DNA of 64,000 bases, taken from positions 62,001 through 126,000 of the forward strand of contig JAMLIO010000002.1 of the NCBI GenBank assembly GCA_023954155.1. The letters are read 5' to 3'. The notes beneath the pieces were generated by a model that made no database searches, was not told where the DNA came from, and was given only the letters and a program-made list of their open reading frames with translations. Shown here piece by piece: positions 48,403 to 53,398 of this stretch. A program made the position numbers and the translations under genes. Every line of letters begins with the position of its first letter. Position 1 is the stretch's first letter. The stretch is from Pseudobdellovibrionaceae bacterium (GTDB taxonomy: Bacteria; Bdellovibrionota; Bdellovibrionia; Bdellovibrionales; UBA1609).

Positions 48403-49884
48403 ATGATCCAATTGAGTAATATTTCCAAAAGGTTTGGTGAGCGTGTCCTTTTTGACAACGTCACTCTGACTATGGGCAAAAAAGAACGTTTGGGCTTAGT
48501 GGGCAGGAACGGTCTGGGTAAGTCCACTTTATTTAAAATCATTCTAGGAGAGACAGGATACGACACTGGGGATATCTCTATGCCCAGAGGGTATCGTCTA
48601 GGACATTTAAACCAACATATTGAGTTTACTAAGGACACAGTGATTGAAGAATGCTGTCAGGTCTTGCCTGAAGATGAAATTTATGACTTTTATAAAGCAG
48701 AAAAATTGCTATTTGGTTTAGGTTTCACTCAAGAAGACATGTATTCTGACCCCAACACTTTTTCTGGGGGCTATCAACTTAGAATCCAGCTGACTAAATG
48801 TTTATTACAGCAACCTGATTTGCTTCTGTTAGATGAGCCTACGAACTATTTAGACATTGTGAGTTTGATTTGGCTCAGACAATTTCTTAGGACCTTTCCT
48901 GGTGAAGTGCTGATGATCACCCATGATCGTTCGTTTATGGACAGTGTGGTGACCCATACGGCAGGGATCAATAGAGGGCAGGTGCGCAAAGTCGAAGGTG
49001 GAACAGAAAAGTACTACGATCAAATTCAAATGGATGAAGAGATCTATGAGAAGACTAAAAGCAATCATGATAAAAAGATCAAAGACTTAGAAAAGTTTGT
49101 AGAAAAAAATCGAGCTAATGCCGCCACTGCGTCTCTGGCGCAAAGTAAAATGAAGTTGATCAAAAAAATGGGAACCATGGATGATCTTGGAGACATTGAT
49201 ACGATGGGTTTTCGTTTTAACTATAAGCCGACTCCAGCTAAAACGGTATTGACCGTTAAAGATTTAAGTTTTGGCTTTGAAGAAGGCAAAGACCTGTTTA
49301 AAACACTTAATTTTGAGGTCAAAATTGATGACCGTGTGGCCATTGTGGGTAAAAACGGGAACGGAAAAACCACTTTACTCAATGTCATTGCAGGTAAATT
49401 ACAAGCCAAAACAGGGGAGATGCAGTTTCACCCAGAAACTCAGATCGCATACTTTGAACAGACCAATAAAAAAAATCTTCAAGTACAAAATAACGTCATT
49501 GATGAGATATGGAGTGCGGATCCTCTATTATCCTTAACACAAGTGCGTGCCATCTGTGGGGCAATGATGTTTCCTGGTGACACAGCAGAAAAGAAAATTG
49601 GTGTTCTTTCTGGAGGAGAGTTGAGTCGTGTACTTCTGGGACAAGTGATTGCAAGACCCAGTAATTTACTTCTGCTTGATGAACCTACAAACCATTTGGA
49701 TATGGAATCTATCGCTGTTCTTGCTGATGAGATCAAAGATTTTCGAGGAGCCACTTTGATGGTGACCCATGATGAAGACCTATTGCATAAGTTGGCCACC
49801 AAGATCATCTATTTTAAAAATGGTAGAACAGATCTTTTCTTAGGAAACTACGAGGAATTTTTAGAAAAAATAGGCTGGGACTAG
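48403..49884 (+). CDS. ABC-F family ATPase (translation-associated, EttA/Uup-like)
   Basis: A 493-residue soluble protein with two ABC domains: Walker A GRNGLGKST and GKNGNGKTT, signature motifs FSGGYQLR and LSGGELSR, and Walker B LLLLDEPTN twice (LDEPTNYLDI, LDEPTNHLDM). A charged inter-domain linker (about residues 210-270) is the P-site tRNA-interaction motif region. No membrane segments exist, so it is ABC-F, which acts on ribosomes, not transport. The exact subfamily is uncertain. The start codon has only a weak ribosome site. Confidence 0.9.
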   Translation: MIQLSNISKRFGERVLFDNVTLTMGKKERLGLVGRNGLGKSTLFKIILGETGYDTGDISMPRGYRLGHLNQHIEFTKDTVIEECCQVLPEDEIYDFYKAEKLLFGLGFTQEDMYSDPNTFSGGYQLRIQLTKCLLQQPDLLLLDEPTNYLDIVSLIWLRQFLRTFPGEVLMITHDRSFMDSVVTHTAGINRGQVRKVEGGTEKYYDQIQMDEEIYEKTKSNHDKKIKDLEKFVEKNRANAATASLAQSKMKLIKKMGTMDDLGDIDTMGFRFNYKPTPAKTVLTVKDLSFGFEEGKDLFKTLNFEVKIDDRVAIVGKNGNGKTTLLNVIAGKLQAKTGEMQFHPETQIAYFEQTNKKNLQVQNNVIDEIWSADPLLSLTQVRAICGAMMFPGDTAEKKIGVLSGGELSRVLLGQVIARPSNLLLLDEPTNHLDMESIAVLADEIKDFRGATLMVTHDEDLLHKLATKIIYFKNGRTDLFLGNYEEFLEKIGWD

Positions 49885-50435
49885 TAAAGCTTAAAATGAG
49901 TTTCAGCTTGGTTGATCAAGTAAGCATTGTCTAAAATAAATCTTAAAAGTAAGAGCGATCGACGAGGAAGTTCTTTGCTGTTCGAAGCTGAGGGGTTAGC
50001 ATCTAAAGCTGCGTACCGCGCTTTAATCTCTAAATGAACTTTAGCTAACTTTTCAATATGAGAGTGTGTGTTGGGATCTATCGGCTGGCGGTTAAGAATT
50101 TTATAAGATAAAAAATAAGTGACCACACTTTCTTGGGACTGCATAAGTAACTGGACGATCTTTTTATCAAGCACTCTGTTGTTATGGTTTATGCGAAGAG
50201 TTTGAAGGCTCATATTTAAGTTTGTGATATGATCAATCTGTTGATACTTTGAATTTTCATGAAACCTTGATACAAGTTGAGGATTCATAATCCCAAAAGT
50301 CCTTAAAACCTTACGCCCTTCCTCTGGTGTAAGTGACAAAAAACGTCCCTCTGAAGACCCAAGAAATCCCTCACAACGAGCGGCTTGAATCTCAAAGCTT
50401 AAAAACATCATCAATAGACAAAAAATAACTTTCAT
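49881..50435 (-). CDS. Secreted protein of unknown function
   Basis: A 184-residue protein with a signal peptide (MKVIFCLLMMFLSFEIQAA). The mature part is helical and basic, with one Cys (RCEGF) near the start. The stop overlaps the ABC-F stop (CTAG). The ribosome site is weak. No family is recognised. Its promoter region, 50436-50535, separates it from the long fold-back element. Confidence 0.55.
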   Translation of the reverse strand: MKVIFCLLMMFLSFEIQAARCEGFLGSSEGRFLSLTPEEGRKVLRTFGIMNPQLVSRFHENSKYQQIDHITNLNMSLQTLRINHNNRVLDKKIVQLLMQSQESVVTYFLSYKILNRQPIDPNTHSHIEKLAKVHLEIKARYAALDANPSASNSKELPRRSLLLLRFILDNAYLINQAETHFKLY

Positions 50436-50535
50436 AAAAACCCATAAAGTAAAGTCCTTGTGTTATATGCAGATTTTAGATCTAAACATCAACACAAAAA
50501 AGATAAATAGAAAATTGTACCTTAGGCCTTATCTA

Positions 50536-50733
50536 GTTCGCCTCGCTGGTTTTTTGAGTCTATTATCCCTATTCACAACGACCCTCCGAGGCGAGCAATG
50601 CGTATCCGACACGCGTTGGCCTATGGGGCCAAAAGGTCCCAGAGGGTAACGCGTGCCGCAGACGCTTTGCACCCGCAGTCGGTCGGGTCGTTGTGAATAG
50701 GGATAATAGACTCAAAAAACCAGCGAGGCGGAC
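50536..50733. repeat. Long fold-back element (46-bp perfect arms plus near-continuous inner hairpin)
   Basis: The arms 50539-50584 and 50685-50730 are exact reverse complements (46 of 46). The 100-bp interior continues to fold: 50595-50617 pairs with 50648-50670 (4 mismatches of 23), and then with 50618-50630 / 50635-50647 to an AAAA tetraloop at 50631-50634. Only one asymmetric internal loop (10/14 nt) breaks the hairpin. It lies 13 nt after the recG stop, transcribed away from it. TCTAG stands on both sides (50532-50536 and 50738-50742), which could be target-site duplication. No gene is inside; a short open frame crosses it. Confidence 0.9.
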
Positions 50734-50745
50734 GGGTTCTAGGGC

Positions 50746-53061
50746 TTAGCCAATTTTAGCAAGGGCGAGGCGCTTTTTATTCTTTTCTAAAATGCGTTTG
50801 ATTTTGTGGTTTTTTTGTTCTTGTAAATAGGGATCTTCTTTAAAGATTTGAAAGGCTTTGTCCCTAGCTATGTGTAAGAGGCGGGTGTGAAGGCCTAAGT
50901 TGGCGAATCTAAATAAAGGTAGCCCCGATTGTTTGGCACCTAAAAATTCTCCTGGGCCTCGCATTTCTAGGTCGTATTCAGAAATTTTAAAACCATCTGT
51001 GTTTTCGGCCATGATGTGAGCGCGCTGTTTGGCCACATCAGAAAAAGCGTCCCCAAGGACAAGAAAGCAGTAACTTTGATGTGTGCCACGTCCCACTCGT
51101 CCCCGCAGTTGGTGCAGTTGGGATAAACCAAAGCGTTCGCAGTTTTCAATGATCATGACATTGGCGTTAGGTACATCCACTCCGACTTCAATCACGGTGG
51201 TGGAGACTAAGATATGTAAATTACCATTTTTAAACTCACTCATGACCTCGTCTTTTTCGCCTGACTTCATACGGCCGTGCAGTAGTCCCACTTTAAAATC
51301 AGGGAAAGTTTGTCTGATTTTGTCATACTCTTCAGTAGCATTTTTAAGGTCTAGAGTTTCACTCTCTTCAATCAAAGGGTAAACAATATAAGCCTGTTGT
51401 CCCTTCTGCAATTGGGTGTGCATGAACTCCAAGGCTTTCCTTTTTTCTTTCGGGTAAAAGACTTGAGTTTGTATGGGAGAGCGTCCAGGAGGAAGTTCGT
51501 CAATCACGCTCACATCAAGATCGCCGTAAACGCTCATGGCTAAAGTTCTGGGGATGGGTGTGGCTGTCATGACTAAAAAGTGAGGGGCGCCACCTTTGGT
51601 TTTTAACTTTTGTCGTTGATTCACCCCGAATCTGTGCTGTTCATCAATGATAACCAGACCTAAATTTACAAACTGCACCTGATCTTCGATCAGGGCGTGG
51701 GTTCCAATGCAAATATCAATATCACCTTGAGCAAGTAGATCTAGAACTTCTTGCTTTTCTGAAGCTTTCATCGATCCTGTTAAAAATCCAATGCGAACAC
51801 CAAGAGGACTTAAATAGGTCTGTGCATTTTTGTAGTGCTGTTCTGCTAAAATTTCTGTAGGGGCCATAAAGGCCACTTGATATCCATTGTCTATGGCATG
51901 GAGGGCCGAGGCCAAAGCCACTAAAGTTTTTCCGCACCCCACATCTCCTTGTACCAGCCTGTGCATGGGAGAATCTTGGCGCAAGTCTTCTAGGATTTCT
52001 GCAAGTGCTCTTTTTTGTGCTCCCGTGTAGGAAAAACTTAAACTGTTTTCTAATTCTTGCATACGCAAAGACTGGATAGGCATAGCAAGGCCTTGCTCTT
52101 TTTGACGATGCAATTTTTTGTAGGCACAAAGCACTTCCATTTCAAAAAGTTCATCAAAGGCCAGACGGTAGTGAAAAGGGGTTTTGCCCTCGCTGTAATT
52201 AAATGTCTCTTTAAGCTCAGGGTAGTGAATCTTCTGTAAGGACTCTTTACGAGAGGGAAGTTTGAACTCCTGAATGATCCATTCAGGCAAGGGATCGTAA
52301 CTTAAAAGTTTTTCTGTTTGGCTTTTGGTATCTTTTTCTGCCAGGCTCAAATTTTGAAAAGCCATATCAATCAATGTGCGAATCTTTTTTTGCGAAAGCC
52401 CTTCGGTTTCAGAATAGACGGGAACAAGAGCATTCTCTCTTTGTTCTTGCTCTTGATCCTGTGTCAGTCCTTTTGTTTGGCCCTGCACTTGATCGCGATG
52501 CTGATTTTGCCCTTGCACTTGATTGAGGTCTTGTTTCTTTGCTTGATGGCCATTCTGATTGCGCCCTAGCACTTGATCAAACTTTTGATTTTGAGCCAGA
52601 CTTCGCGTTTGATCTTGAGTGGCTACAGAGGGAGTGTTTTGTACTTTAATGATCTCTACTTCTGGGTGATGAAATTCCTTTTTGCCGCCATAGTAAGTGA
52701 CAGTACCCGTAACATAAACCTCCATGTGAGGTTCAAAGTTATTGAGATATCCACGGAAAGGGAGGCGAAAAAATTTACAGACAATGCTACCTGTTTCATC
52801 AAAGATCAAAATCTCAGAGATCTGACGACGCCCACCACGAACTGCAAATTGCCGCGTTTTTAAAACTTTGGCTTTAATTTTAACGGTGTCTCCTGCTTCT
52901 AGAGTGGCGATCTTTCTATTGAGTCTCTGGTCTTCGTAAGCACGTGGTACAAACTCCACAAGATCATTGATATTATAAATCCCTTTTCTTTTTAGACGTT
53001 CCCCCAAAGCAGGGCCCACGCCTTTTAAGAACTGTATGGGAGTCTCTAAATCAATGGACAT
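50746..53061 (-). CDS. recG: ATP-dependent DNA helicase RecG
   Basis: About 771 residues. I start at the ATG at 53061 (GAGGTG upstream). RecG remodels stalled replication forks and Holliday junctions. The N-terminal wedge/OB part (about 1-140) contains LKGVGPALGERL; the helicase part has GDVGCGKT (motif I), IIDEQHRFGV (motif II), MTATPIPRT (III) and LRGRVGRGTHQSYCFL (VI). Residues about 142-200 are an extra Gln/Asn-rich stretch (52462-52638) between wedge and helicase domains, not normal for RecG. The element at 50536 lies just behind its stop. Confidence 0.95.
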   Translation of the reverse strand: MSIDLETPIQFLKGVGPALGERLKRKGIYNINDLVEFVPRAYEDQRLNRKIATLEAGDTVKIKAKVLKTRQFAVRGGRRQISEILIFDETGSIVCKFFRLPFRGYLNNFEPHMEVYVTGTVTYYGGKKEFHHPEVEIIKVQNTPSVATQDQTRSLAQNQKFDQVLGRNQNGHQAKKQDLNQVQGQNQHRDQVQGQTKGLTQDQEQEQRENALVPVYSETEGLSQKKIRTLIDMAFQNLSLAEKDTKSQTEKLLSYDPLPEWIIQEFKLPSRKESLQKIHYPELKETFNYSEGKTPFHYRLAFDELFEMEVLCAYKKLHRQKEQGLAMPIQSLRMQELENSLSFSYTGAQKRALAEILEDLRQDSPMHRLVQGDVGCGKTLVALASALHAIDNGYQVAFMAPTEILAEQHYKNAQTYLSPLGVRIGFLTGSMKASEKQEVLDLLAQGDIDICIGTHALIEDQVQFVNLGLVIIDEQHRFGVNQRQKLKTKGGAPHFLVMTATPIPRTLAMSVYGDLDVSVIDELPPGRSPIQTQVFYPKEKRKALEFMHTQLQKGQQAYIVYPLIEESETLDLKNATEEYDKIRQTFPDFKVGLLHGRMKSGEKDEVMSEFKNGNLHILVSTTVIEVGVDVPNANVMIIENCERFGLSQLHQLRGRVGRGTHQSYCFLVLGDAFSDVAKQRAHIMAENTDGFKISEYDLEMRGPGEFLGAKQSGLPLFRFANLGLHTRLLHIARDKAFQIFKEDPYLQEQKNHKIKRILEKNKKRLALAKIG

Positions 53062-53398
53062 GAAGGTCACCTCGTTGTGGAGACCAATAACAATCTGTAC
53101 GGGTCTACCCATTAAAACCCCCTTAGCCTACTATAAATTTGCAAAGAAGACACGATCAGAGTTCTGACAGTGGCGGTGCACCTGAGTGAGGAACGGCCTG
53201 AATGCCAAAGCGTGTCGAAGGTTTTGTGCTTAGAGGCCGTTCTGGCATGAAGTCGTGAATGGCGAGCCTTGCCGCAGCTTTTATAACTCTTATCATTTTG
53301 CTTGAAGACATGCACAGCTCATATTTGTATCTTCAAGGCAGGTGGAGTATGCTGCGCCCTTAAAAGACTAAAATTTTAAAACAAAAGGGGAAGGCTGC
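53062..53398. other. Divergent intergenic region (recG / symporter) with two inverted repeats
   Basis: This 337-bp gap holds GAACGGCCT (53191-53199) / AGGCCGTTC (53234-53242), a 9-bp perfect inverted repeat with a 34-nt loop, and CTTGAAGA (53301-53308) / TCTTCAAG (53330-53337) close to the symporter start. Short frames here (for example 53112-53315, minus) have no ribosome site and I do not consider them genes. The repeats may be regulatory sites or hairpins. Confidence 0.4.

Follow-up and report, generated by a model that had tools for sequence, protein, structure and literature searches.

What kind of sequence is the long fold-back that lies beyond the 3' end of recG in the 64-kb stretch of DNA analysed here (the window, taken whole), and how did its arms come to match? 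The two outer arms are reverse complements at 46 of 46 positions and enclose a centre of 100 nt, within which 50595-50630 pairs with 50635-50670 (Table 1). The RNA folding energy of the hairpin is -155.1 kcal/mol, compared with -67.4 +/- 4.5 for shuffled sequences (z = -19.3; 0 of 200 shuffles reach it), and it is the sole inverted repeat with a score of at least 18 across the window. The exact arm match and this z value confirm the long fold-back with a 46-bp perfect outer stem that an earlier note had described from the letters.

Table 1. Positions of the window hairpin, its parts and neighbours, and of the other hairpin families elsewhere in the dataset.
Feature	Location	Strand	Remarks
Left outer arm	50539..50584	+	Locus-specific; exact reverse complement of 50685-50730
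Right outer arm	50685..50730	+	Mirrors the left arm exactly; about 15 nt from the recG stop
Dispersed Family 1 repeat core, type A	50582..50683	+	24 genome copies, including type B and one short copy
Conserved motif, 5' half	50600..50608	+	GCGTATCCG
Conserved motif, 3' half	50657..50665	+	CGCAGACGC in the window copy; family form CGAAGACGC
Variable apical stem-loop, type A	50609..50656	+	Loop AAAA at 50631-50634
recG, host gene	50746..53112	-	3' end faces the hairpin; identity confirmed
Host gene of 184 aa, other side of the hairpin	49881..50435	-	No Pfam family
63-codon ORF across the hairpin	50458..50649	+	Probably not a gene
Family 2 hairpins	G000:C9:55679, C2:297068, C4:92417 and 16 others (L105-L114, L047)		
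Possible third hairpin family	L058:2210-2360; L195:8428-8574; L195:9490-9632		

Several suggestions made for this locus could be followed up directly. An intrinsic terminator is a hairpin followed by a T-run, and no T-run belongs to the window hairpin, which bears out the view that it is not a terminator. The short frame crossing it had been put down to the hairpin being read as protein; it is probably not a gene, and the arm sequence is not conserved between copies of the element. The gene identity of recG holds, while its proximity, to which some weight had been given, is not special, since the 24 copies described below adjoin many ordinary genes. TCTAG is present on both sides of the hairpin (50532 and 50738) and had been counted in favour of a transposon; the pentamers do not abut the arms, and across 109 pairs of flanks 5-mers are shared no more often than chance predicts (10 observed, 11.4 expected), so that TCTAG is no evidence for a target-site duplication and none was found in these flanks.

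A search of the whole genome (2.44 Mb in 15 contigs) found 24 copies of the centre, here called Family 1, comprising 12 of type A, 11 of type B and one short copy. GCGTATCCGAC is present in all 24, together with a corresponding 3' motif (GCCGAAGACGCTTTGCACCCG or a near variant), and the core is asymmetric, GCGTATCCG...CGAAGACGC, with two conserved mismatches. The apical stem is short and GC-rich in type A; in type B it is long and AT-rich, and keeps its self-complementarity while its sequence varies. Family 1 is a dispersed, multi-copy and mainly extragenic palindrome found mostly at gene 3' ends, some copies forming close pairs in opposite orientation. In 23 of the 24, outer arms of about 37-100 bp are near-perfect inverted repeats within the copy and differ from locus to locus; similarity between copies fades about 25-50 nt from the core in most, and pairing mostly continues for 16-57 bp further. 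The outer sequence of the window copy is unlike that of the other 23, save for about 40 nt of weak similarity beside the core, and the different histories proposed for the perfect outer and the diverged inner stem are borne out. Core orientation is unbiased relative to GC skew in this genome (10 versus 13); a replication-strand bias was therefore rejected, and the proposed replication, packaging or fork-pausing site finds no support. ORFs were called mechanically, and most neighbouring genes were judged by eye. Beside one copy (L033, G000:C4:43875) the serA ORF appears about 10 residues longer, reaching into the hairpin arm, which, compared with usual SerA tails, looks like an extension by insertion.

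Dispersal of this kind, mainly intergenic and with some close pairs in opposite orientation, is what might be expected of a conventional MITE or REP moved by a transposase in trans, the arms being termini that later diverged; part of each arm is indeed shared within subfamilies. MITEs are likewise small non-autonomous dispersed elements, with conserved ends and target duplications. In Family 1, by contrast, the centre is conserved and the arms are locus-specific, the reverse of a MITE, target duplications are missing, and the arms hold host coding sequence at a junction where other genomes are without the element (see below). The Y1 transposase domain (Y1_Tnp, PF01797) is absent from this genome, with positive controls, and the ORFs between paired copies include no shared transposase and look like host genes (most judged by eye). 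We therefore regard this explanation as very unlikely, and the miniature transposon with long terminal repeats imagined in the earlier note has the opposite layout to the one observed.

The distribution of the element could be followed beyond this genome with covariance models, which detected relatives, whereas blastn of the core in 58 relatives gave no match outside this genome. A model built from type A found homologues in nine genomes besides this one (141 searched), and a second, built from 31 diverse cores, was positive in 13 of 144 genomes including this one, representing 11 genera and three families; ten of the 12 other positive genomes belong to the same family and two to other families. 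Gathering by exact motif missed diverged copies, which were added by model R2. With 24 copies here and homologues in 12 further genomes, the prospect that the hairpin might be a single copy without relatives can be set aside. In a named scan of GTDB species, 24 of 35 matches were Bdellovibrionales or Bdellovibrionaceae MAGs, and the remaining 11 pattern matches fell in unrelated bacteria and have no arms. By eye, cores from one genome are more alike than cores from different genomes, which is what an amplifying family would be expected to show. A strict 21-nt core pattern had no match in genome contigs, a longer specific pattern had 0 matches in IMG/VR, and blastn against phages and plasmids found none; a short pattern had 36 matches in viral contigs, which are presumed to be chance. 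Within one genus, G134 and G133 are core-rich (31 and 13 matches) and G018 and G031 have none. Targeting to repair genes, suggested by the shared neighbours uvrA, rpsA and mfd, was rejected, the number being, on a rough reckoning, near chance. A literature search covering few subscription journals, on palindromes in Bdellovibrio, on long palindromes and on inverted duplication, had no matching description, and we consider Family 1 to be an undescribed repeat of a Bdellovibrionales bacterium.

All named source genomes are MAGs and some copies lie at contig ends, circumstances in which fold-back chimeras of assembly or amplification would have to be considered. Such chimeras would have random centres, but here the same covarying core is central in different palindromes from 13 genomes and several named projects, and an artefact is scarcely credible.

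The covariation, which the earlier note had suggested checking, is strong, and the structure is kept across species and genera. Over 31 aligned sequences, a 24-pair core structure is 90.7% paired, against 76.2% in shuffles; 118 cells are changed on both sides, against 36; and the covariation score is 0.414, against 0.142. These values are reached in 0 of 500 shuffles. The helix formed by GCGTATCCG and CGAAGACGC has an A.G mismatch in 31/31 aligned sequences and a C.A mismatch in 30/31, the exception being the window copy, where the two halves pair apart from A50604.G50661 and C50606.C50659 and the second mismatch is thus C.C. One pair of this helix changes jointly from C-G to U-A, and G.U occurs on the core strand at two core columns, in 14 and 11 sequences. 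The span between the motif ends is 42-114 nt, and Rfam scans at gathering and relaxed thresholds gave no relevant match to any known family. A structured or small mobile element, as the earlier note considered, is likely.

The origin of the arms was approached with 99 deduplicated Family 1 hairpins, 23 from this genome and 76 from relatives. Their arms are 94.9% complementary over 5424 columns, with a median of 51 bp and 25 perfect, and 18 of the 99 have an arm that overlaps 8 nt or more at the 3' end of an adjacent ORF. A convergent mfd/lipoprotein junction is common to most genomes examined. Two of them (G022 and G017) carry a core at this junction, in opposite orientations, and in both the last 21-22 nt of the lipoprotein coding sequence (..GLRLEF* and ..GFKLEM*) are repeated inverted on the mfd side. 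The stretches downstream of mfd in 20 other genomes have no core; a few of these have another gene after mfd, and that of G015 ends early at a contig end. In G033, a congener of G022, the mfd and lipoprotein stop codons are about 6 nt apart. Downstream of mfd in G011 (L259) there is an inverted repeat with 46-nt arms and a 113-nt spacer, and no recognised core, at a junction that is empty in other genomes. A second contrast comes from this genome, in which siderophore-interacting-like paralogues, 87% identical and ending ..ASGYWKRTRS*, each have a core downstream: at C14:10579 the gene tail ..YWKRTRS* is mirrored in the far (right) arm, whereas beside the paralogue at C5:223069 the matching arm is absent, a difference perhaps due to recombination between copies. 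The mfd junction and the paralogues show that host sequence can be copied, inverted, into an arm, and copying of the flank is supported at two loci. Where there is neither an empty site nor a paralogue, an ORF that enters an arm may be a gene lengthened by the insertion; part of each arm may also be element-borne, since many copies have related arm sequence close to the core.

Our preferred reading, to which we assign a probability of about 0.5, is that these are REP-like dispersed hairpins of the Bdellovibrionales that act through a folded core strand, and whose insertion or upkeep copies one flank in inverted form by fold-back synthesis. The heritable part would be the core of about 45-140 nt, folding on one strand around the A.G and C.A mismatches. 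A putative enzyme would place it beside a gene end, and the core strand would fold back during insertion; the 3' side of the folded core could then prime DNA synthesis, so that about 40-110 nt of adjoining flank are copied inverted, and the copied end would then be linked to the opposite flank. The match between the arms may afterwards be kept up by template switching or by selection acting on the core strand in its folded form. Known bacterial repeats have conserved ends or are conserved palindromes; what would be new here is a conserved centre whose long arms can duplicate nearby host sequence in inverted form, and mirror arms that vary with the locus and are copied from the neighbouring gene end would point to an unusual route of DNA insertion. 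Fold-back synthesis is mostly deduced from tumour genomes or rare mutants; here it would be seen as a process that recurs in nature, and there are empty sites for comparison.

The mismatches that remain in the arms are not evenly divided between the strands. G.T is found 84 times on the core strand and 32 times on the other (p = 1.5e-6, 99 hairpins), and counted per copy the bias is 48 versus 10 (p = 4.5e-7), both p values being approximate owing to relatedness among the copies and the common ancestry of several arms; its strength comes from the relatives, as this genome alone gives 19 versus 9 (p = 0.09). The bias may stem from selection acting on the core strand in its folded form, or from bases misincorporated on that strand in the course of fold-back synthesis. 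It holds in each gene layout (++ 11:4, -- 26:9, +- 26:13), and among tandem layouts of copies -- is the commoner (29, versus 12 for ++).

This bears on whether the hairpins are structured RNAs at mRNA 3' ends, such as bidirectional terminators, RNase III substrates or 3'-end stabilisers, with RNA selection keeping the stems paired and the arms overlapping gene ends as transcript caps. The covarying core, the G.U tolerated on one strand, the location at gene 3' ends and the strong folding would all suit such a role. The G.U bias, however, follows the core strand in all layouts, including the commoner -- arrangement, where mRNA that reads through would be of the opposite strand; the window hairpin lacks a T-run of its own, many genomes do without the element at the same junction, and inverted copies of one gene's tail are left unexplained. 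On balance, a purely RNA-level explanation seems unlikely.

SbcCD cuts long hairpins, and neither SbcC nor SbcD was detected in this genome; SbcD is above cut-off in no core-positive genome. Within the order the protein passes that threshold in a single family, where no core was found; since nearly every family of the order lacks it, its absence is no guide to where the element occurs. SbcCD and palindromes are treated in PMC3315005. Lack of SbcCD would permit long palindromes and does not discriminate between the explanations; near-perfect palindromes of 200-350 nt do persist in these bacteria, for which SbcCD went undetected. In one further explanation, an old dispersed repeat with imperfect arms might have been homogenised and extended outward by template switching during replication in the absence of SbcCD, with no active insertion. 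That template switching between inverted-repeat arms homogenises them is described in PMC8604942 and is also established knowledge, and in the apparent orthologues G134 L301 and G133 L331 the arms match at 93-96% within each copy and are not recognisably similar between the species, a pattern that fits either continued rewriting or separate insertions. Against so passive a process, nearly all copies retain the core mismatches, though correction should remove them first, and symmetric correction does not predict a strand bias. Long inverted repeats are also rare away from the cores: statistics for the genome come from sampled stretches, and a 400-kb sample held only six with a score of at least 20, three of them built on a core of Family 1 or Family 2 and a fourth on a Family 3 core (Families 2 and 3 are described below). 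With SbcD absence failing to track the element as well, we think passive perfection of an old repeat improbable.

Among known systems, quasipalindrome template switching and fold-back or ODIRA-type palindromes resemble the present hairpins in their inverted flank copies and arm homogenisation, but we know of no tie between these processes and a conserved dispersed core. Integron attC sites share the single-strand hairpin, unpaired bases on one strand, a variable apex and a position at gene 3' ends; the flanks of Family 1 differ in being ordinary host genes, and the attC boxes GTTRRRY/RYYYAAC were not seen by eye in core alignments A1 and A3. REPs and REPINs with their RAYT (TnpA-REP) are also dispersed short palindromes, mainly intergenic, asymmetric on one strand and sometimes in inverted pairs, for which mobilisation as single-stranded hairpins has been proposed. 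By analogy, Family 1 would work in the manner of REPs or attC sites, as a single-stranded DNA hairpin element. It has the dispersed, multi-copy and mainly extragenic habit of REPs; its core is longer, with conserved internal mismatches and long locus-specific arms, and no Y1 transposase was found. PMC3733652 gives REPs a length of 20-40 bp and a GTAG or CGTC tag, and the core, stems and mismatches of Family 1 do not conform to such a unit with its short stem and unpaired tag. CGTC-type REPs are, according to that paper, palindromic, mostly dimeric and without a known dedicated transposase, all points of likeness; they differ in having stems of 8-9 bp, loops of 4-5 nt and a CCA-like tail, and the passages on them describe no locus-specific arms (PMC3733652).

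The plan of Family 1 recurs around other cores. Family 2, with the core CTCCAGCAAGCGGGACGCG...TGCTGGCAGAGCCCATGGATGGGCGTGTC, has 19 copies in this genome, and its arms are near-perfect in most copies read; the core is unrelated to that of Family 1. A further core with long arms, GTGACGTTTGGC...GCCAAGCCGAACTC (one strand), is present in three places and represents a possible third hairpin family, Family 3. We tentatively propose, at odds somewhat short of even, a class of non-autonomous elements of the Bdellovibrionales in which a folded single-stranded core is inserted at gene ends and self-primed fold-back would write the inverted gene end on the opposite side, each insertion building its own palindrome; at least one core family unrelated in sequence, Family 2, and perhaps a second, would share the process in this genome. 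In the Family 2 copy at C4:92417 an arm runs into an ORF ending AFDPKMKK*, and at L113 (G000:C5:181200-189100) IS3-like transposase ORFs and RHS-like gene fragments lie between two Family 2 hairpins.
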